Source of the DNA: Candidatus Gastranaerophilales bacterium
GTDB taxonomy: Bacteria > Cyanobacteriota > Vampirovibrionia > Gastranaerophilales > Gastranaerophilaceae
Assembly: GCA_944323735.1 (NCBI GenBank)
Contig: CALUTO010000019.1
Coordinates: 1-36,538, forward strand
Direction of reading: 5' to 3'
DNA length: 36,538 bases
Part shown: positions 5,550 to 20,949 of the stretch, in pieces
Position numbering within the stretch: the first letter of the stretch is position 1
Layout of the letters: every line of letters starts with the position of its first letter
Translations under genes and position numbers: made by a program
Notes under the pieces: model-generated
Told to the model about the DNA's origin: nothing
The model's input: only the letters and a program-made list of their open reading frames with translations
The model's database searches: none

Positions 5550-7642
5550 AGATTAATAACACAATAAATAATCAATATACACAAAAAACTTCATTTAAAG
5601 CTTCATTGCTTGATATAATGAATAACAAATATCCTAAAATAGCAGCACAGCCTGTTTCTTCTACGAACACAATGCTGCCCGGAGCATATGCGCCGGTATC
5701 AACTCCAGTGGCAACAAATTATAATAAAACCGGAAATCTTTTCACGTTGATGATGGGAAGAATGACGGCTTCTGCCTCAACTGCAGCTGCACCGGTACAA
5801 ACTACAGCTGTAGATAACAATCTCAAAACACCAAAGCTGGAAGGATACAAAAATAATCTCCGCTCAATGTTTCAGAACAATCAGGCCGTCATTTATGCAA
5901 TGGTTCCGAGAACATTTAATGCAAAAGACACTGACGGAAACGGACTTATTGAAGGCAATGAAGAAAGCGGTACGTTTATTAATATGATAGAACGGCTGGA
6001 TGAACTTAAAAGCTATGGAGTAAATACTCTTCACTGGCTGCCCATAAATCCTCCCGGTGTTTTTTCGGCAAAAGGTGATTCCGGTTCTGTTTATGCACCG
6101 GCTGATTATCTTTCTATAGACCCGCTTCTTGATGATCCGAAAAATCAGAAAAATGTTTACGAAGAAGCCAAAGAAGCTATAAATGAATGTCACAAACGCG
6201 GCATTAGAGTTATGGTGGATCTTCCGAGCTGTATGTCCTCTGATTTGTATGCGGAGAGATTTAATGATTTAAGCGCAGTTGACGCAGACGGAAAACCCAA
6301 AACACCGGAAGGCTGGGAAGATATCAAAATGTTCAAAGTCTGGGAAGATGCAGATAAAAAAATATTGAATCCTGCTCTTGTTGATTATCACAAAAAATTT
6401 GTCGATATGTGTATAGACTTAGGAATTGACGGGATAAGAGCCGATGTATCAAGAGCAAAATCACCGGAATTCTGGGATATAATAATTGCTTACGCAAGAA
6501 GCAAAGATCCTGAATTTGCAATGCTTGCAGAAACATACACTTATGAAGATGCGTCTCCTATGAAAAACATGCCGGCTGACAGACCTGAAGAAGCATTGAA
6601 AGCAGGTTTTGATTCTTATTACGGGCAATATCATATATTTCCTATATGGAAGGCCTCAGATTTCCATAAATTTGTTACAGAAAACCTTGAAATGACTCAT
6701 AAATCAGGTTTTGACAAAGGAAAATCAATAATCGGTTCATTCGCTACACACGATGACAAAAGTGCAATGTCAAACGGAGGTGCTGAATATTGTATGCTGA
6801 CAAACATTGCACAGGCCACTCTGCCTATGCTTAATCCGTACATAGTTTCGGGGTTTGAATCAGGTGACAGATATATTTACGATTACGCAAACAAAATGCT
6901 GGATGTCAGCTTTAATGATTTGATGAAAAAACCGAGATACAACAAAGTAATCAATGCAATTATGGCAGAACAAAATTCACCTAAATTTATTGAACTGGAA
7001 AAGAAATTGGAAGTAAATAAAGATGAAGTTATACCCTATACGAAAATTGAAGCCTTAATGAAAAGCCCGAAAGCAAATATGAAACTCAAGGATTTGCAAA
7101 AAGATGAGGAATTCGGTGAGGTAATAGACTTTTTAAGCACATTTAAACTGACAAAAGACAGTATTATTCATTATGCGCATAACGAACAGATTGACATCTT
7201 TAACCGTTCAAGAAAGCCAGGCGGACACAATCCTGAAATAGGAAAACACTTCGGAAAATTAATGAATGAATTCAGAAAACAGTACTACGATGTTGTCGGG
7301 GCTAAAGGTTCTTCATACATGCCATTAAAAGTAAAGGGCGATGACAGAGATGATGTAATAGCTTATGCAAGACACAATCACGGAAAAACTCTTGTGGTTG
7401 TTATGAATAAAAATGTACATTCAGGTCATAGAGTAAAAGTCATTGTACCCGGACTTAAAGCTTCACAGATATTGACAGATCTTTCTCCTGAATACGGACA
7501 AAAAAGTGTATGGAAAGCTGAAAATGGAGCAATAGATATGGAACTCGGAATGGCAAGAGGTCACATTTTTGAAATAGATGACCCGAATATTGAACAGCTT
7601 GTTCTAGAATCCGGCGGAAAAGTCTACAAACAAAATATGTAA
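5546..7642 (+). CDS. GH13 alpha-amylase-family protein
   Basis: This 698-aa protein has a low-complexity N-terminus (about 1-100, with a TSFKA motif at 15-19), then a (beta/alpha)8 alpha-amylase-family barrel and a C-terminal beta domain (about 590-690). Visible GH13 hallmarks are the Ca-type loop DTDGNG (128-133), region I ending VMVDLP (222-227) without the usual Asn-His, region II GIRAD with nucleophile D300, region III AET with acid/base E329, and region IV THDD with D403. All three catalytic acids are kept, so glycoside hydrolysis or transglycosylation on alpha-glucans is likely; the exact substrate is not deducible. There is no signal peptide. It is coupled to the preceding membrane protein by a 4-base overlap, so it may act at the membrane or on storage glucan. 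Confidence 0.9.
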   Translation: MKINNTINNQYTQKTSFKASLLDIMNNKYPKIAAQPVSSTNTMLPGAYAPVSTPVATNYNKTGNLFTLMMGRMTASASTAAAPVQTTAVDNNLKTPKLEGYKNNLRSMFQNNQAVIYAMVPRTFNAKDTDGNGLIEGNEESGTFINMIERLDELKSYGVNTLHWLPINPPGVFSAKGDSGSVYAPADYLSIDPLLDDPKNQKNVYEEAKEAINECHKRGIRVMVDLPSCMSSDLYAERFNDLSAVDADGKPKTPEGWEDIKMFKVWEDADKKILNPALVDYHKKFVDMCIDLGIDGIRADVSRAKSPEFWDIIIAYARSKDPEFAMLAETYTYEDASPMKNMPADRPEEALKAGFDSYYGQYHIFPIWKASDFHKFVTENLEMTHKSGFDKGKSIIGSFATHDDKSAMSNGGAEYCMLTNIAQATLPMLNPYIVSGFESGDRYIYDYANKMLDVSFNDLMKKPRYNKVINAIMAEQNSPKFIELEKKLEVNKDEVIPYTKIEALMKSPKANMKLKDLQKDEEFGEVIDFLSTFKLTKDSIIHYAHNEQIDIFNRSRKPGGHNPEIGKHFGKLMNEFRKQYYDVVGAKGSSYMPLKVKGDDRDDVIAYARHNHGKTLVVVMNKNVHSGHRVKVIVPGLKASQILTDLSPEYGQKSVWKAENGAIDMELGMARGHIFEIDDPNIEQLVLESGGKVYKQNM

Positions 7643-7662
7643 ACACTTAAATATCCAGTCTA

Positions 7663-8028
7663 CTAGTATGCGGCAAGTGTTTTTGAAAAACACTTGCCGC
7701 TCATTATGCAATAATCTCCGACTCTGGATGCCTTTTTTGTTCCCGGATTAATAATCAAAACAAAAGGAACGGACTCTATATTCCATTTTTCTATCAGTTT
7801 TGAAGAAAGTCCCGAGTCTGCATTTTGGCGTACAAAATTAAATTTCGATGAATATTTTTTCTGTGCCTTACTATAAATATCATCAAAATATTTACATGCT
7901 GAACACCCGTTCTGATACATATAGAAAACAAAAGGTTTTTGTTTATTCATTGCCTCATCAAAAGACAAAGATATTGCGGGCGAAACAAAAACGAAGAAAA
8001 AAAATAAAACAAGAGAATATTTCATCAT
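7663..8028 (-). CDS. Secreted thioredoxin-like protein
   Basis: This 121-aa protein has an N-terminal hydrophobic signal sequence (about 4-20, cleavage perhaps after the SPAIS stretch) and a short thioredoxin fold. The redox pair is C42-S-A-C45, and the cis-proline loop is S87-P88 (VPFVLI). Two more cysteines (C107, C113) near the end could form a second disulfide. It probably acts outside the cytoplasmic membrane in disulfide exchange, or as a thioredoxin-like SoxW/DsbE-type protein; the exact partner is unknown. The start overlaps the stop of the upstream gene by one base (TAATG), so translation is coupled; a second ATG follows directly. Its last codons coincide with the 7670-7700 palindrome. 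Confidence 0.85.
   Translation of the reverse strand: MMKYSLVLFFFFVFVSPAISLSFDEAMNKQKPFVFYMYQNGCSACKYFDDIYSKAQKKYSSKFNFVRQNADSGLSSKLIEKWNIESVPFVLIINPGTKKASRVGDYCIMSGKCFSKTLAAY
7670..7700. repeat. Perfect 31-bp palindrome
   Basis: GCGGCAAGTGTTTTT and its exact reverse complement are separated by one base. It lies 27 bases after the stop of the GH13 gene and inside the last codons of the minus-strand thioredoxin-like gene. It can form a strong hairpin in both convergent transcripts. There is no T-run after it on either strand, so a terminator or 3'-end stabiliser role is plausible but not shown. Confidence 0.8.
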
Positions 8029-8612
8029 TATAACAGTGTTTCACCGTTTTTTTTGACATACAGTCCGAGACCTATGGTTTTGTATTTGCTCAGCTCGTTT
8101 TTCAGATTGTAATTTTCTTTATTCAACTCATTCATTTTGTACCTTAGAGTTTCATTTTCAGTTTTACATCTGACAAGCTCAACAACAACCTCATCCATAC
8201 CGTCCAATTTTTCATCAATCATTTTTGAAAGTTTTGAAGCAATGTTATCCTCTAAAGATTCCAGTGTTGAAATCATTTTTTGAACAGCAGTGGAAGCAGG
8301 CTGCTTAACCGGTGCAATGTTTTCCATGGGTTTGGCAACTGTTCTGTCCTGTAATTTTTGTGCATTTTCGTGCAATGCTTTTACCTTTCTGAGAATTTCT
8401 ACATCATCTCTTGAAAAATAAGTTCTGCCATGAGCATCTTTTTTGGGCATTAATGAAACTTTAGCGCATAATTTAGCAATTCCTTTATTGTCCATGTTAA
8501 GAAGATTTCTGACTGTTTCCACAGAGAAATTTTGTATTTTATTGTCAAAATCCACAAACTGATTTATTTGTTGTCTTCTTTGCGGTTGTCGACCGTTTAA
8601 CACAGTAGCCAA
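8028..8612 (-). CDS. MerR-like DNA-binding protein with coiled coil
   Basis: Residues about 30-80 resemble a MerR-type winged helix: a helix-turn-helix (SVETVRNLL...GIAKLC), then a 'wing' containing GRTYFSRDDVEILRKV. The central part (about 85-115) is Pro/Ala-rich linker, and about 115-180 is a predicted coiled coil with a heptad-like run of Leu/Glu/Asn. That layout (DNA-binding head, long coil) is seen in chromosome-organising or regulatory proteins, but a role cannot be assigned. The start is TTG at 8612-8610, preceded by GAGGAG at good spacing; no ATG fits. It is the first gene of a two-gene operon with the thioredoxin-like protein, and its own promoter is proposed just upstream. Confidence 0.8.
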   Translation of the reverse strand: MATVLNGRQPQRRQQINQFVDFDNKIQNFSVETVRNLLNMDNKGIAKLCAKVSLMPKKDAHGRTYFSRDDVEILRKVKALHENAQKLQDRTVAKPMENIAPVKQPASTAVQKMISTLESLEDNIASKLSKMIDEKLDGMDEVVVELVRCKTENETLRYKMNELNKENYNLKNELSKYKTIGLGLYVKKNGETLL

Positions 8613-8651
8613 AATTACTCCTCACAATAAAGATAAAGTTCCAATGACAAT

Positions 8652-8680
8652 ATTATATTTTAAATTTCATATAATGAAAA
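8652..8680 (-). promoter_or_regulatory. Probable promoter of the MerR-like/thioredoxin operon
   Basis: Reading the minus strand, TTTTCA (8680-8675) and TATAAT (8657-8652) are separated by 17 bases. A start near 8645 would leave a leader of about 33 nt containing the GAGGAG site. Confidence 0.45.
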
Positions 8681-8743
8681 CATGTTATAACCTTTTCTTT
8701 ACAATAGGTTAAATTTATATATTTTTTACAGCCACAAAGACGG

Positions 8744-10060
8744 CTAAACTATTTCACCGCGCAAATGCCAGACACTTGCGCCGGTGATTTTCACATTGAC
8801 AAACTGTCCGATTAGAGATTCATTACCGTTAAAGTGTACAATTTTGTTATTTCTTGCACGTCCGGCCAGAATACAAACGCCGTTTTTATTTTCTGATGAC
8901 TCCACAAGAATTTCCTGAACTTTGCCCACAAATTTTTTGTTGGATTTAAGGCAAGCTTCTTTGACTTTTTCATTTAAAATGGCAAGTCTTTTAAATTTTG
9001 TTTCTTCGTCTATAAATTTATCCACCCATCTGGCAGCTTTTGTATACTCACGTGGAGAATATGCAGCCGTATTAGAATAATCGAGTTTGAATTCATCGAT
9101 AGCACTCAAAGTATCGAGAAACTGTTCTTCTGACTCACCCGGGAAACCTGCAATAAAATCAGAGGTAATGGTAACATCAGGAAACCTCTCACGTATTTTT
9201 TTTACAATAGTTCCGTACTGTTCTCTGTTGTATCTTCTGTTCATAGCAGCCAGAATTTCGGAATTTCCTGACTGCATGGGGATATGGAAGTATTCACAGA
9301 CTTTGTCGCACTCATCTACCGCATTTATCAAATCATCCGTAATGTCAGTAGGGTAAGAAGTAACGAATCTTATGCGGAATTTTCCATCGATTTTGTTTAA
9401 TTCTCTCAATAAATTCGCAAGTGTAATATTTTTTCCCAGGGTTTTTCCATAGCTGTCGACATTTTGCCCGAGGAGAGTAATTTCCTTAAATCCTTGTTTT
9501 ACAGCAATTTCAGCTTCTTTGATAATTTTTTCCGGTTCTCTGCTGCGTTCACGTCCTCGTGTGAAGGGAACAATGCAGTATGTGCAGAAATTGTCACACC
9601 CTTCTGTGATAGGTATCCAGGCATTGAGCATGTCTTTTCTTTTTATTTCATACTGAGATTCATCAACTACATAGGGTTTTTGAGTAATCGCACACACTCT
9701 CTCACCCTGATATATTTTTTTTATAAGCTCAGGGAGCTGATAGATATTGTGCGTACCGAAAACCAGATCCAGATATGGAAATCTTTTGAGTAATTTTTCC
9801 CTATCCTGTTGGGCAACGCAGCCGCAGAAGGCAATTTTCAGACTGCGGTTTTTTTGTTTCCATTTCCCCCAGACTCCGACACGGCTGTATGCCTTGTCAG
9901 CTGAGAGCTGCCTTATGCTGCATGTGTTTATAATGAGAAAATCGGCATCTTCTGCCCTTTCAGCTTCGACAAAGCCGAAATGCGAGAGCATGCCGAGAAT
10001 TCTTTCCGAGTCAGACTTATTCATCTGACAGCCGAGTGTTTCAACAAAAACCTTTTTCAT
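8744..10060 (-). CDS. miaB: tRNA-2-methylthio-N6-dimethylallyladenosine synthase
   Basis: MiaB is a radical-SAM methylthiotransferase that adds the 2-methylthio group to i6A37 of tRNAs. The 438-aa length is typical. The N-terminal UPF0004 domain carries the cluster cysteines C11, C47 and C81, and the radical SAM motif CxxxCxxC is C155, C159, C162. A TRAM-like RNA-binding domain occupies about 375-437. The opening LGCQMNKSDSE is characteristic of MiaB rather than RimO or MtaB. The gene follows the BI-1-like gene by 37 bases and has no visible ribosome site; a TATAAT sits six bases before the ATG, suggesting a leaderless transcript. Confidence 0.96.
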   Translation of the reverse strand: MKKVFVETLGCQMNKSDSERILGMLSHFGFVEAERAEDADFLIINTCSIRQLSADKAYSRVGVWGKWKQKNRSLKIAFCGCVAQQDREKLLKRFPYLDLVFGTHNIYQLPELIKKIYQGERVCAITQKPYVVDESQYEIKRKDMLNAWIPITEGCDNFCTYCIVPFTRGRERSREPEKIIKEAEIAVKQGFKEITLLGQNVDSYGKTLGKNITLANLLRELNKIDGKFRIRFVTSYPTDITDDLINAVDECDKVCEYFHIPMQSGNSEILAAMNRRYNREQYGTIVKKIRERFPDVTITSDFIAGFPGESEEQFLDTLSAIDEFKLDYSNTAAYSPREYTKAARWVDKFIDEETKFKRLAILNEKVKEACLKSNKKFVGKVQEILVESSENKNGVCILAGRARNNKIVHFNGNESLIGQFVNVKITGASVWHLRGEIV

Positions 10061-15059: not shown

Positions 15060-17204
15060 TTACCAGCTGACTACGACCATACCGGTGGAGCCTTCTGTTT
15101 TGGAGTTGTCATAGCCCCATCTGCCGTTGGGTTCTTTGTCCGCTTCTCTCGGGATTTCATAGTTTCTGAGAGGCAGACCGTATTTGTCCAGTGTGAGTCC
15201 GTCGCCGTAGATTATGATATCACCGGCGATACCGCCGTTTCCGACATTGTCTGTGCCGACAGTGTTGAGTCTCTTGTCAGTGTTTACAACTGACGGGCTG
15301 TTTACATCAGTCGTGTCAGAATAGCATCCTTCATTTGCACCCAGACCGCCCATGGCTCTAATCCAGCCGAATGAGGATTCACCGCCCTGTTTGTTGACTT
15401 TTCCGCCTTTACCGACTTCGAACTTAAATCCTCTGGTTCCGGTAGAGGGGAACATAGCGGCTTTTACTTCGCCTGCCTGACCGTGGCAGCCTACGTAGTA
15501 TGTGAATTTGTCAAGGTTTATATATAGTCCTTCTTCTTTCGGAAGGGTGGTTATTGTAGTGAAATTAGGATGGTTTAATATAGTTTGCCCGTCCGTACCG
15601 TTTTGTGTACAGTGAGGTGCTGTGCCGGCAGAATTTGCGAATTCCGGCTGGTGTCTTGCGTCGCAGTCATAGCAGCAACTGCCGACACCTGATGAATTCA
15701 TTTTTCCGGCTTTTCCGCCGTTCATAACAGCGATCAGATTGTCATGTTCGACAGGGGTTCCGCCGTTCCAGGTTACGCTTCTGTAGACGTATCTGTAACT
15801 TTCTGCGTCATTTGATGCAGTGACGGGATATCCGTTTACGGTTGTTTCGGGATATTCTTTGTATGTATCAGGTTCAACTCTGTTTTTGAAGATTTTTTCA
15901 CCCTGCTGCATATTCAAAGTTCCGTGTGCACCGGGTGCAGGGTCGCCGTTCGTTGCATTCAGGAGTTTTCCTGATATGTCGCTTACACACCATGCTTCTT
16001 CCAGCGAAGTATAGTCATAGACATCATGTTCAGTATTACACACTTCATCGTAATAGCTGCAGTCATATGAATTATCGCAGGTTTCGCATGTTCTGGTGCA
16101 GTCAGGGTTTTTTACTGTAACTGTTGTCGTTGCAAAACCGGTGAACACACCGCTTGTGAACGGGAACCATCTGAAAGGCCAGCCGACAGAACCGCTCGGT
16201 GTTCCGCCTCCGGAATTGCTGGAGCTGTTGCTTGAGCTTGGTTTTGAAGAACTTGAGCTAGAGCTTGGTTTTGAAGAACTTGAGCTTGAGCTTGGTTTTG
16301 AAGAACTTGAGCTTGAGCTTGGTTTTGAAGAACTAGAACTAGAACTTGAGCTTGAGCTGTAGCTTGAGCTCGGTTTTGAAGAACTAGAACTAGAACTAGA
16401 ACTAGAACTTGAGCTAGAACTTGAGCTAGAACTTGAGCTAGAACTTGAGCTAGAACTTGAGCTCGGTGGGGTCGGCTCCGGATCAGGAACTTCTACTTCC
16501 TGTTCAATGTATTCAGAGCATTCATTACCTGCACTGTCCAGCCATTTACAGTTACACTCTGCTTCAGCATCTCCGCAGGTCTTTTCAACAAGCACGTTTT
16601 CACAGGTTGTTACATCTTTTGTGTGATCAACAGGCTGTTTGCAGCCGATAGCCGGAGAGAAGGTATATTTGTTATACCTGTCATATCCGGGATAATGTGT
16701 TTCTTTATAGAAATACCCGAGGTTTCCGTTATGGTATGTAGTCGGTGTATAAACACTCTGACCGAGTGCCCATGCCGGAGAAACGGCTGTGGAGGTTCCT
16801 CCGAGATAGACATTATAGTCGCCATGTATAGGAACAGGCTCTCCGAATTTTATATGCTCGGTATATGCCACCCACGGCACTGTATAAGCCGGGCTTCCGC
16901 CGCCGCCTCCGCCGTATACTTCAACGTACATATACTTAACAGTGTTTCCGATACCTTTGAACACACAGCCTTTTACCCACTCTTCATCAGGCGGGAGAGG
17001 TGTGTCGATATCTTTTGCACGTGCCGAGTACAGTTCGCCGTTAATGTATTTACACGCCCATTTGCCGTGCTCGGCGTTTTTGTCTATCACTCTGTGCTTT
17101 TTCGTGAACACAGGGATAGTTGCGGCTACCAGCAAAGCCACAACAAGCATTGTTACTAAAGCTTCTGCCATAGAAAATGCGGATTTGCAGTTTTTTCTGT
17201 CCAT
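15060..17204 (-). CDS. Very large Cys-rich pilin-like protein with poly-Ser linker
   Basis: 714 aa. Prepilin signature A9|F10-SMAE, hydrophobic helix to about 33. The shared module follows: HGKWAC (C51), an ING motif, EEWVKGC (C80), then YGGGGGG at 97-103. Residues about 188-230 are Cys-rich (C188, C201, C210 and a cluster to C229). Residues about 247-334 are nearly all Ser, interrupted by Lys-Pro pairs. A second Cys-rich section follows, then a glycine-containing C-terminus ending GMVVVSW. I read it as a pilus-tip or surface protein in which an extended Ser linker separates two disulfide-bonded domains. AAGGA precedes the ATG. It is transcribed alone, with its own terminator. Confidence 0.87.
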   Translation of the reverse strand: MDRKNCKSAFSMAEALVTMLVVALLVAATIPVFTKKHRVIDKNAEHGKWACKYINGELYSARAKDIDTPLPPDEEWVKGCVFKGIGNTVKYMYVEVYGGGGGGSPAYTVPWVAYTEHIKFGEPVPIHGDYNVYLGGTSTAVSPAWALGQSVYTPTTYHNGNLGYFYKETHYPGYDRYNKYTFSPAIGCKQPVDHTKDVTTCENVLVEKTCGDAEAECNCKWLDSAGNECSEYIEQEVEVPDPEPTPPSSSSSSSSSSSSSSSSSSSSSSSSSSSSSKPSSSYSSSSSSSSSSSKPSSSSSSSKPSSSSSSSKPSSSSSSSKPSSSNSSSNSGGGTPSGSVGWPFRWFPFTSGVFTGFATTTVTVKNPDCTRTCETCDNSYDCSYYDEVCNTEHDVYDYTSLEEAWCVSDISGKLLNATNGDPAPGAHGTLNMQQGEKIFKNRVEPDTYKEYPETTVNGYPVTASNDAESYRYVYRSVTWNGGTPVEHDNLIAVMNGGKAGKMNSSGVGSCCYDCDARHQPEFANSAGTAPHCTQNGTDGQTILNHPNFTTITTLPKEEGLYINLDKFTYYVGCHGQAGEVKAAMFPSTGTRGFKFEVGKGGKVNKQGGESSFGWIRAMGGLGANEGCYSDTTDVNSPSVVNTDKRLNTVGTDNVGNGGIAGDIIIYGDGLTLDKYGLPLRNYEIPREADKEPNGRWGYDNSKTEGSTGMVVVSW
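16234..16341 (-). repeat. 27-bp tandem repeats encoding SSSSSKPSS
   Basis: About four copies of a 27-bp unit (starts at 16234, 16261, 16288, 16315) inside the 714-aa pilin gene. The first three differ by a single base at the unit end and the fourth diverges after about 20 bases. The unit keeps the reading frame, so copy-number change would lengthen or shorten the protein by nine residues. Confidence 0.9.
16381..16464 (-). repeat. 6-bp and 12-bp tandem serine-codon repeats
   Basis: Four copies of GAACTA (16381-16404) are followed by five copies of GAACTTGAGCTA or GAACTTGAGCTC (16405-16464). On the coding strand the 12-bp unit reads AGC TCA AGT TCT, four serine codons in fixed rotation. Both unit lengths are multiples of three, so slippage would change length without frameshift. 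Confidence 0.92.
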
Positions 17205-17501
17205 AAATTATCCTTATTTTGCTAACACTCGAGTAATAATTTCTATTTAACAAAAAATCTTTTTTTATATCGGCATTTTTTAAAAAAAACTTTAACAAAT
17301 AACGCACTTTTGTAAAGTTATGTAAATGCGAATTTTTAAAATCTTTTTCAAAATATACCTATCCGTCTATTATCTTAATTTCTATCTATCTTATTTTAAT
17401 CATACAAACACAGTATGTATTACTATATAGATAAAACATCTGCTTTATATTAATATAATTATACAATTTTGAAAAACTATTATCAACAGGACGCATTTAT
17501 T
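17205..17501. other. Divergent AT-rich intergenic region
   Basis: About 297 bases separate the 714-aa pilin gene (-) from der (+). The sequence is very AT-rich, with long T and A tracts. A TATAAT at 17454-17459 is a possible -10 for der, without a good -35. For the minus strand TATAAA at about 17268-17263 is possible. No RNA gene or ORF is recognised. Confidence 0.45.
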
Positions 17502-18833
17502 ATGGCTAAACTCCCAATCGTCGCCATCGTCGGCAGACCAAATACGGGCAAATCAACCTTCGTGAACAGGCTAACCGGTGCCAGACAGTCAATCGTCGAT
17601 GACCTCCCCGGAGTCACCAGAGACAGAATTTATTTTGATGTCGAATGGCAGAACAAAAATTTCACCGTCATCGATACGGGCGGTATCATCCCCGACAGCG
17701 ATGACGAAATTATGCTCAACATCTTTTCGCAGGCCCAAATAGCCTGCGACGAGGCTGATGTTATTATTTTTATGGTAGATGGTAAAGAAGGCATAAATCC
17801 TGTTGACTACGACATTGCAAATATATTAAGACGCAGCAAAAAGTCAGTATATCTCGCTGTGAACAAAATTGACTCGCCTGAAAGATTCTCCATGACTGCT
17901 GATTTTTATGAGCTTGCTCTGGGCGAACCGTTCCCTATCTCTGCGCTGCACGGCTCCGGCGGGGTCGGCGATTTGCTCGATGAAATAACAAAAGACTTTG
18001 AACAAAATCAGGACAAATACACTGACGACAACATTAAAATCGCTATTGTCGGAAAACCAAACGCCGGTAAATCCTCCATAACAAACGCTCTCCTCGGAGA
18101 GGACAGGGTAATCGTCAGCGATGTCTCCGGAACTACAAGAGACAGCATAGACTCAAAAGTTAAATACGAGGGTGAAGAGTTTACTCTCGTTGACACTGCC
18201 GGTATCAGAAAAAAATCGAAAGTCGACTGGGGTGTTGAAAAATTCGCTGTGGACAGGGCTATCCGTGCTATCAGAGACTGTGATATTGCGCTTTTGATTG
18301 TCGATGCAACTGAAGGAATTACAGATCAGGACAAAAAAATATCACAAATCATCATTGAAGCTGGAAAAGGTATAATTATTGCTGTTAACAAGTGGGATTT
18401 AATCGAAGACAAACAGGCAAATTCTACCGTTAAATATGAAGAAAAGCTAAGGCATGAGGCTCCATTTTTGAGTTTTGCACCGGTTATCTTTATCAGTGCA
18501 AAAACAAAACAACGGCTCGTCAGTATTTACAAAAAATCAAAAGAAGTTTTCGAACAGTGCCGGAAACGTGTTTCTACAAGTTTATTGAACAAAATTATCA
18601 TAGAAGCACTCGCAATGAATCCTCCAACCTCCAAAAAGGGCAAAAAACTCCGTGTGCTCTATGCTACACAGATTAAAACGGCTCCGCCCTCGTTTGTCCT
18701 CTTTGTTAACAACGAAGATTTGATACAGGACAGCTACAAAAGATATCTCGAAAACAAAATGAGAGAAGCTTTCGGTTTCTCAGGCACGCCCGTAAGGCTC
18801 TTGTTCAGAGAGCGAAAAGAAAAACAACAATAG
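17502..18833 (+). CDS. der: Ribosome-associated GTPase Der (EngA)
   Basis: Der is the double-GTPase ribosome biogenesis factor for the 50S subunit. Two G domains in tandem are visible: the first with P-loop GRPNTGKS (11-18), DTGG and NKID; the second with GKPNAGKS (184-191), DTAG and NKWD. A C-terminal KH-like domain follows. The 443-aa length is normal. I take the ATG at 17502 rather than the in-frame TTG at 17469, because the Der N-terminus begins right at the first beta strand and AGGA lies 10 bases before it. plsY follows 8 bases later and the malic enzyme overlaps plsY, so the three are probably co-transcribed. Confidence 0.96.
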   Translation: MAKLPIVAIVGRPNTGKSTFVNRLTGARQSIVDDLPGVTRDRIYFDVEWQNKNFTVIDTGGIIPDSDDEIMLNIFSQAQIACDEADVIIFMVDGKEGINPVDYDIANILRRSKKSVYLAVNKIDSPERFSMTADFYELALGEPFPISALHGSGGVGDLLDEITKDFEQNQDKYTDDNIKIAIVGKPNAGKSSITNALLGEDRVIVSDVSGTTRDSIDSKVKYEGEEFTLVDTAGIRKKSKVDWGVEKFAVDRAIRAIRDCDIALLIVDATEGITDQDKKISQIIIEAGKGIIIAVNKWDLIEDKQANSTVKYEEKLRHEAPFLSFAPVIFISAKTKQRLVSIYKKSKEVFEQCRKRVSTSLLNKIIIEALAMNPPTSKKGKKLRVLYATQIKTAPPSFVLFVNNEDLIQDSYKRYLENKMREAFGFSGTPVRLLFRERKEKQQ

Positions 18834-18841
18834 GAGTAAGT

Positions 18842-19441
18842 ATGATACAAATTCTTTTAGCCGCAATTCTCGGCTACTTAATCGGCTCAATACCTACAGG
18901 CTACATAATTGTCAGGCTCAAAACCGGTCAGGATATCAGAAAAATCGGCTCCGGTTCCACAGGGGCAACTAATGTTAAAAGGGTGCTCGGTAAAAAATGG
19001 TTCTTTATTGTTATGTTCCTCGATGCACTTAAAGGTGCTATCCCTGTTGTGCTTGCTATTGTGTTCCTGAAAGCATATGCACAGTACGGTGTCACGCCCG
19101 TTATCGCAGCAATCTCAGTTCTGCTCGGGCACAGCAAATCAATATTCCTGAAATTTACCGGCGGAAAATCGGTTGCGTCAGGAGTGGGCACGATACTTGC
19201 GCTATGTTTCCCTGCAGGTATATGTATTGCTTTAATATGGGGCATAATTACCTACATCTCAAAATATGTCTCTCTCGGCTCTATCATTGCACTTGCACTT
19301 TCACCGCTCCTTATGTTCATCTTTAAGCAACCCGCCGGATACATTGTTTACTGTGCTATCGGTGCTGTTTATATAATCTGGCTGCACAGGGAAAATATTA
19401 AAAGACTTTTAAAAGGGGAAGAAAATAAGGTGCGTGAATAA
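18842..19441 (+). CDS. plsY: Acyl-phosphate:glycerol-3-phosphate acyltransferase PlsY
   Basis: PlsY is the integral membrane enzyme that makes lysophosphatidic acid from acyl-phosphate and glycerol-3-phosphate. Family hallmarks are GSIPTGY (15-21), GSGSTGATNVKR (37-48) and GHSKSIFLKFTGGKSVASG (96-114). About five membrane helices fill the 199 residues, the usual length. AGGAG precedes the ATG, and the stop overlaps the next start by one base (TAATG), indicating coupling. The pair der-plsY is common in bacteria. Confidence 0.96.
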   Translation: MIQILLAAILGYLIGSIPTGYIIVRLKTGQDIRKIGSGSTGATNVKRVLGKKWFFIVMFLDALKGAIPVVLAIVFLKAYAQYGVTPVIAAISVLLGHSKSIFLKFTGGKSVASGVGTILALCFPAGICIALIWGIITYISKYVSLGSIIALALSPLLMFIFKQPAGYIVYCAIGAVYIIWLHRENIKRLLKGEENKVRE

Positions 19442-20949
19442 TGGTTTACTATAAGGGTGTTAAAGTTGTTCCGAAAATAGAAATTAAAAACAAAGAAATA
19501 CTTTCACTTGTTTATACTCCCGGTGTCGGCTCATCGTGTCTCAAAATTAAAGAAAATATTGAGGCAGAAAAAATTTACACCAACAAAATAGACTCCGTTG
19601 CTGTGATTTCTTTTGATTATGAAAAATCACTGAAACGGGCTGTGTTCCTCAAAAGTTCACTGCTTATTGATGCTTATCCTCTTTGCATTAAGCAAACAAC
19701 AGCAGAGGATTTGAAATTTGCGGTCGAAAATATTGAGCCTAATTTTTGCGGTATTGATTTGAGCCTCATTTCAGATTTTGTAAAAGATATTGAATTCAAG
19801 GTCGACATTCCGGTTTTAAAAGGGATTGTGCCTGATATAAAAGAATTTTTCGGCACTATCTCCAGAAATGTCTTTATGTTCAGTCCTGATAAGCTTAAAG
19901 GAAATGTTTCCGAAAAATCTCTGCAGCTTCATGAACTTGCAGGAGGGGTGATTGAGACAGAACTGAGCGAAGTTGAGTGCAAAAAAATGGTCGCCATAGT
20001 CTCTGACGGCACTGCTGTTCTCGGTTTCGGAAACATCGGTGCAGATGCAGCCCTGCCCGTTATGGAGGGCAAAGCCGCTTTATATGCTGCCCTTGCCGGC
20101 GTTAGTTCTATGCCGTTTTGTATAAAAACTCAAAACGCAGATGAGGTTATAAAAATTGTGCAGCTGTTTGAAAACTCCTTCTCCGGTATACACATGGAGG
20201 ATATTTCCGCTCCGGACTGTTTCAAAATTGAAAATACTTTGATAGAGTCGCTCAAAATTCCTGTGTTCCACGATGATCAGCACGGAACGGCCATTATTGT
20301 GCTGGCTGCAATTTTAAATGCTCTTACTCTTGTTAAAAAAGAACTTTCTGACGTGAAAATCGTTATTAACGGTGCGGGTGCAGCAGGAAGTGCTGTTGCC
20401 AGGCTGTTGATTTTTGCTGGTGTGAAAAACTTAATCATGCTCGACAAAGACGGAACAATTTACAAAGGTCGTCCGCAAAATAATGAAAACCTTGAAAAAC
20501 TCGCACAACAAACAAATCCAAATCAGGAAAAAGGACAGCTTGCTGATGAAATAAAAGGTGCAGACATCTTCATCGGACTTTCTAAAGGAAATCTTGTCAC
20601 CCCTGATATGATTAAGTCAATGAATAACAGGCCGATAGTCTTTGCGCTTGCAAATCCGGTGCCGGAAATTATGCCGGATGATGCGAAAAAAGCAGGTGCA
20701 TACATTGTTGGTACGGGACGCAGCGATTTTCCAAACCAGATTAACAATTCACTTGCCTTTCCGGGTGTGTTTAAAGGTGCCATAGACAACAATATCCACA
20801 AAATTACCGATGAAATAAAGCTCAACTGTGCCGTGGCTCTCGCTTCTATCGTGAGCAATGATGAACTTTCAGTTGAAAAAATCCTGCCCGAGCCTCTTGA
20901 TCCGGGAGTTGTACAAAGAATTACGGAAGTTATGGCATCTAAGCTTTAA
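19441..20949 (+). CDS. Malic enzyme with internal insert
   Basis: Malic enzyme oxidatively decarboxylates malate to pyruvate with NAD(P). Clear signatures are YTPGVG (25-30, catalytic Tyr), SDGTAVLGFGNIG (188-200), MEGKAALY (208-215, catalytic Lys K211), MEDISAPDC (252-260), HDDQHGTA (277-284) and the dinucleotide motif NGAGAAG (310-316). At 502 aa it is about 100-120 residues longer than the usual ~390-410 aa short bacterial form, without a phosphotransacetylase tail. The extra ~130 residues sit between the N-terminal YTNK region and SDGTAVLG. Part of that insert resembles the following segment (see findings), so it looks like a degenerate internal duplication. Frame is open throughout. Cofactor choice is not clear. 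Confidence 0.9.
   Translation: MVYYKGVKVVPKIEIKNKEILSLVYTPGVGSSCLKIKENIEAEKIYTNKIDSVAVISFDYEKSLKRAVFLKSSLLIDAYPLCIKQTTAEDLKFAVENIEPNFCGIDLSLISDFVKDIEFKVDIPVLKGIVPDIKEFFGTISRNVFMFSPDKLKGNVSEKSLQLHELAGGVIETELSEVECKKMVAIVSDGTAVLGFGNIGADAALPVMEGKAALYAALAGVSSMPFCIKTQNADEVIKIVQLFENSFSGIHMEDISAPDCFKIENTLIESLKIPVFHDDQHGTAIIVLAAILNALTLVKKELSDVKIVINGAGAAGSAVARLLIFAGVKNLIMLDKDGTIYKGRPQNNENLEKLAQQTNPNQEKGQLADEIKGADIFIGLSKGNLVTPDMIKSMNNRPIVFALANPVPEIMPDDAKKAGAYIVGTGRSDFPNQINNSLAFPGVFKGAIDNNIHKITDEIKLNCAVALASIVSNDELSVEKILPEPLDPGVVQRITEVMASKL

Follow-up and report, generated by a model that had tools for sequence, protein, structure and literature searches.

The window, that is, the whole 36,538-nucleotide stretch of DNA analysed here, is a contig of a Candidatus Gastranaerophilales bacterium (order Gastranaerophilales, class Vampirovibrionia in GTDB). 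Its positions 19441-20949 on the forward strand encode a malic enzyme (ME) of 502 aa, the sole Malic_M match retrieved in a genome-wide search of the source genome. Pfam assigns to the protein PF00390 (malic, in two stretches; 89.9 bits vs a gathering score of 23.1) and PF03949 (Malic_M; 87.1 bits vs 23.5), and no other convincing domain, generic Rossmann matches falling within the NAD domain only. In particular, Pfam detected neither an N-terminal ACT domain, residues 1-141 matching the ME N-domain instead, nor the C-terminal phosphotransacetylase (PTA) domain of hybrid MaeB enzymes, as the chain stops at the ME C-terminus. Immediately upstream lie genes for a Der-like GTPase and PlsY (17469-19441), the end of plsY and the ME start sharing one base. 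In the window's family, most members have PlsY adjacent to the ME; in the fetched stretches of the other families PlsY was not found. On the reverse strand, the window also encodes (15060-17204) a 714-aa protein whose N-terminus resembles that of a prepilin and which contains long poly-Ser/Lys-Pro-Ser tracts.

The ME chain contains the entire catalytic set (Y25, K211, E253, D254, D278/D279, N405, N435/N436), split over two homologous copies. The YTPGV and VMEGK motifs, found together in one copy of single-copy small NAD-MEs, are separated here, the former occurring in copy 1 only and the latter in copy 2 only. As in single-chain pseudo-dimer enzymes, homologous copies are fused in tandem and one of the two sites is degenerate. 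The features are the following.

19441-20949, forward strand: whole gene, eroded tandem-fusion malic enzyme of 502 aa (HMM pieces; genome-wide search)
19441-19863, forward strand: copy 1 (residues 1-141), degenerate malic N-domain and putative Tyr-motif donor that has lost the Rossmann domain and the C-terminal helices (HMM, hhalign)
19513-19527, forward strand: YTPGV (residues 25-29), catalytic Tyr motif, preserved in the first copy of each of the 65 fused sequences (motif comparison)
19612-19830, forward strand: degenerate beta-alpha part of copy 1 (residues 58-130), with SDG, Lys and metal motifs lost (hhalign, motifs, predicted secondary structure parallel to copy 2)
19636-19638, forward strand: Arg66 of copy 1 where the catalytic Lys belongs, invariant in aligned members of the window's family (alignment)
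19753-19767, forward strand: IDLSL (residues 105-109), equivalent in position to the NLED motif that binds metal, with other residues in place of both acidic ligands (alignment)
19831-19896, forward strand: linker between the copies (residues 131-152), where the NAD domain and C-terminus of copy 1 were deleted (comparison with the 698-aa and 849-889-aa forms)
19897-19983, forward strand: remnant of the copy 2 N-terminus (residues 153-181, SLQLHELAGGVIE), Tyr-motif segment deleted (superposes on the 5CEE and 1VL6 N-termini; segment present in longer relatives)
19984-20946, forward strand: complete catalytic and NAD-binding part of copy 2 (residues 182-502; copy 2 overall spans about 153-502) (HMM, similarity to 5CEE)
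20056-20073, forward strand: PVMEGK with catalytic Lys211 (motif comparison)
20197-20202, forward strand: metal ligands Glu253-Asp254 (motif comparison)
20266-20289, forward strand: FHDDQHGT (residues 276-283), metal/catalytic Asp motif (motif comparison)
20371-20388, forward strand: GAGAAG dinucleotide-binding loop (residues 311-316) (motif comparison)

Two malic enzyme copies in one chain

The initial annotation of this gene, made from the sequence, had proposed a degenerate internal duplication. Using an HMM built from 77 canonical MEs, we could match the chain in three pieces: residues 7-57 to HMM positions 26-76, residues 67-112 to positions 100-145 (E-value 7e-6) and residues 180-499 to positions 68-387 (1e-147), so that positions 68-76 and 100-145 occur twice. 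When compared with the canonical ME profile by hhalign, the insert alone (residues 58-141, 37 orthologues) gave an E-value of 4e-9 (probability 96%) and the whole of copy 1 an E-value of 1.7e-24. As a single sequence the insert scored 22.0 bits, the best of 2000 shuffles reaching 8.2 bits. BLASTP of one half against the other also detected the similarity, albeit weakly (33% over 36 residues, E-value 2e-4). In a phmmer search against solved structures, residues 7-49 and then 182-495 aligned to 5CEE, leaving about 50-181 unmatched, the part previously taken for an insert.

The HMM pieces, hhalign and the shuffles thus bear out the duplication; the profile match reaches the IPV motif pointed out before, and motif comparison agrees that SDGTAVLG and GNIG are absent from copy 1 and present in copy 2. 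The limits given for the repeated unit, residues 51-127, do not hold, since the real unit runs from about 7 to about 130 and includes the YTPGV segment. Nor was an insert placed within the N-terminal malic domain: residues 1-57 are part of the degenerate copy, the equivalent segment of copy 2 having been lost, and therefore the extra DNA represents a whole second enzyme, trimmed. The duplication is larger than first described: two whole MEs were fused head to tail, and the present chain is what erosion has left of them.

For the full 502-aa chain, AF2 modelling gave a pLDDT of 90.9 and a pTM of 0.89. Blocks over residues 51-130 reach a pLDDT of 94-97, with four sequences in the input alignment over the insert; copy 1 modelled alone from four sequences has a pLDDT of 30. 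Secondary-structure elements predicted for copy 1 (E52-57, H60-74, E77-82, H88-97, E104-106, H108-114) follow the same order as those of copy 2 (E183-188, H202-219, E223-227, H233-242, E247-252, H259-270).

Relatives of graded length and complementary losses

We looked for fusions across the order and the class. Every full-length match in the 192 genomes of Gastranaerophilales searched has the same architecture as the window's ME, and homologues of the same length, which the initial annotation had suggested looking for, are among them: most fused forms are 482-514 aa long, others 535, 565-572, 669-671 and 698 aa. Copy 1 of the 698-aa form aligns to HMM positions 14-165 (E-value 3e-42) and, with its C-terminal helices, to 321-397 (4e-8), the Rossmann part being missing; copy 2 aligns to positions 7-397. 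The class-wide search revealed ORFs of 849-889 aa in three further families; in the 16 that were fetched, both copies match the canonical HMM essentially end to end. In the other members of the class and phylum that we checked, the ME is single and canonical, though often extended at its N-terminus. In maximum likelihood trees, computed with and without the truncated copies, copy 1 sequences form one clade (support 1.0 for full-length copies, 0.977 with truncated copies included), as do copy 2 sequences (0.957). Therefore, a single fusion predates the order and took place before these families diverged. Two complete small bacterial MEs joined in tandem gave rise to the protein, and copy 1 has been eroding since that event. 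An assembly artefact is ruled out by the presence of the architecture in dozens of genomes, and a frameshifted pseudogene by the open frame and low dN/dS.

Several observations concern ME distribution in these bacteria. No ME match was obtained in 143 of the 192 genomes of the order, and most sampled Gastranaerophilaceae lack any ME, several of these genomes being 99% complete. One locus (L114, with L173/L174; genome G226, contig C334, positions 6971-9129, minus strand) carries two unfused ME genes side by side, whose decay is in part complementary: the first has YNPGA and intact Lys/metal motifs, the second YSPGV and GGFDDLNTMTN instead of GRSDFPNQINN. In the tree, the two genes are sisters (0.85) and cluster with the fused copies (0.943); the pair could be a parallel heterodimer, in a genome with 9% contamination. 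The only ME of a different type in the family is a fragment with WHDDQQGT (L150; G159, contig C104, positions 1-903), which runs off the contig start and is possibly a contamination or a transfer.

Motifs were counted in 65 sequences, namely, 49 from the order (48 distinct, one duplicate) and the 16 full-length fusions. All 65 have an intact YTPGV in copy 1 (49/49 and 16/16), and none has one in copy 2, where the motif is degraded or deleted, reading YSPEA, YSPHA, HSPNA or SAPHS in the full-length fusions. Conversely, copy 2 retains SDG, the catalytic Lys, NLED, FHDDQ, the GxGAxx loop, ANP and NN in essentially all sequences, and the FHDDQ metal site of copy 1 is broken in 65/65. The copy 1 version of FHDDQHGT has become FHADQ, FHSDQ or MHG-E in the full-length fusions; in the short forms it can no longer be recognised or is absent. 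At the level of motifs, then, the losses of the two copies are strictly complementary, although the 65/65 counts represent one evolutionary pattern and not 65 independent events, because all fused sequences share one ancestor. Since both motifs are already decayed in the full-length fusions, the asymmetry was present before either copy was truncated. In six members of the window's family, FHDDQHGT of copy 2 reads (L/I/V)HDDQHCT, with Cys for Gly beside the catalytic loop.

What is left of copy 1 is constrained: mean column conservation is 0.71 for residues 58-130 vs 0.77 for the N-domain of copy 2, and most dN/dS values for copy 1 fall within 0.02-0.1, one close pair having 0.2. These values indicate that copy 1 is under purifying selection and is not decaying freely, which fits a structural and catalytic-donor role without proving it.

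A putative composite active site

In the structure of B. bacteriovorus MaeB, a swapped helix gives Y52 to the opposing active site (PMC7902834). Likewise, the E. histolytica ME has Tyr65 of one protomer at a distance of 2.8 A from Lys120 of its partner; its authors called the entangled dimer a general feature of dimeric prokaryotic MEs (PMC11944484). We propose that in the ancestors of the window's ME, as in ordinary prokaryotic MEs, the YTPGV helix would have crossed to the partner, its Tyr acting as the general acid at the partner's site. After fusion, the Tyr segment of copy 1 would serve the site of copy 2 in the same chain, and that of copy 2 would be useful to the copy 1 site only. One of the two sites being dispensable, the Lys, metal and NAD parts of copy 1 could then decay together with the Tyr segment of copy 2. 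To the present site, copy 1 would contribute Tyr25, and copy 2 would contribute Lys211, Glu253, Asp254, Asp279, Asn405, Asn436 and its NAD domain; copy 1 would be retained as the Tyr donor and half of the dimer scaffold. The enzyme is predicted to be a normal malate-oxidising decarboxylase. The published Tyr swap predicts which parts are needed (Tyr of copy 1; Lys, metal and NAD parts of copy 2), and the observed distribution of losses matches; from these structures and the sequence pattern we infer the step from losses to a composite site. Taken together, the sequences make it quite probable that tandem fusion with complementary loss has produced a one-chain pseudo-dimer with a single composite site, a putative malate-oxidising decarboxylase.

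Placement of the Tyr segment in the model was judged by the first and last residues of structural alignments. Against one chain of entangled prokaryotic MEs, only model residues from about 146-159 onwards superpose (for 5CEE, about 156-502, 344 residues, Z 42.5, rmsd 1.7), whereas against unentangled eukaryotic MEs the superposition starts at about residue 10-12 and extends to 502 (for 1GZ3, 10-502 on 96-535, Z 28.3). These starts are consistent with the modelled Tyr segment of copy 1 covering the copy 2 site in cis, a placement partly built into the AF2 input because the canonical rows carry the inter-chain Tyr/Lys signal. Alternatively, composite sites might form in trans, copy 1 of one fused chain completing copy 2 of another in an obligate dimer. 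The parent enzymes are entangled dimers and the linker at residues 131-152 could permit such an exchange, but we consider it unlikely given that the monomer model is compact and confident, with the N-terminus predicted to lie over copy 2 as in an unswapped eukaryotic ME.

Phosphofructokinase and the pseudo-site of mammalian adenylyl cyclase provide precedents for an old active site turned into an allosteric one. The initial annotation had suggested a regulatory site for a dicarboxylate or acyl ligand, in which the former active-site pocket of copy 1 would now be allosteric. The constraint on copy 1 and the invariant non-canonical residues around the old site (Arg66 at the Lys position, Tyr60, Asp106, Ser108) speak for it; yet Arg66 may equally be structural, and the pocket is not conserved across families, f5, f6 and f7 carrying unrelated residues there. 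Moreover, with the NAD domain of copy 1 and the Tyr segment of copy 2 gone, little of the pocket is left. YTPGV is the only catalytic motif kept in copy 1 of every family and has been lost precisely from copy 2, which favours active-site completion over regulation, and the regulatory proposal, so far unsupported, appears improbable. The two functions could also be combined, copy 1 donating Tyr25 while its collapsed site (Arg66/Tyr60/Asp106/Ser108) now senses a ligand and thereby shifts the Tyr segment into or out of the copy 2 site. We give this little credence; if true, an adenylyl-cyclase-like pseudo-site would have evolved within malic enzyme, the path from a symmetric dimer being preserved in living lineages. 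Finally, although some MEs of cyanobacteria and related classes have N-terminal ACT-like extensions (e.g. L112 and L169, by eye), insertion into the malic domain of junk or of an unrelated regulatory domain such as ACT, resembling ME by chance, has a negligible probability in view of the hhalign match, the shuffles, the tree and the Pfam result, and is refuted by the 698-889-aa intermediates.

Relation to known enzymes

The closest counterparts are small prokaryotic NAD-MEs (Ca. Phytoplasma 5CEE, T. maritima 1VL6/2HAE, S. pyogenes 2A9F, P. horikoshii 1WW8/2DVM), to which copy 2 is 42-49% identical (Z 36.5-42.5). It has all their catalytic motifs except YTPGV, which is supplied by copy 1. Those enzymes are homodimers of about 390-440-aa chains with two composite sites, whereas in the window's ME the two are fused, one copy is eroded and one site per chain is expected. 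Hybrid MaeB enzymes of B. bacteriovorus and E. coli share the ME domain and the documented Tyr swap (PMC7902834), but what they carry in addition is an acetyl-CoA-sensing phosphotransacetylase domain at the C-terminus, not a second, N-terminal ME. In eukaryotic MEs (human ME2 etc.), Tyr and Lys come from one chain, as proposed here; they avoid entanglement via loop insertions (PMC11944484), and the window's ME would do so by fusing and eroding a second copy. In the literature searched, we found no description of the fused architecture.

Outside this family, the mammalian adenylyl cyclase C1/C2 pair is comparable, a single-chain pseudo-dimer in which one site is live and the other dead. There too, an active site at the interface is kept once and the other is degenerate, but the enzyme is unrelated, and the dead half of the window's ME has lost most of its fold, with living intermediates spanning the path.

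Annotation as a plain 'NAD-dependent malic enzyme' hides this different architecture. The relatives constitute a natural graded series, 849-889 to 698 to about 670 to about 570 to about 500 aa, from a homodimer with shared sites towards an asymmetric single chain. The domain swap predicts which parts each copy may lose, and the losses agree with that prediction.
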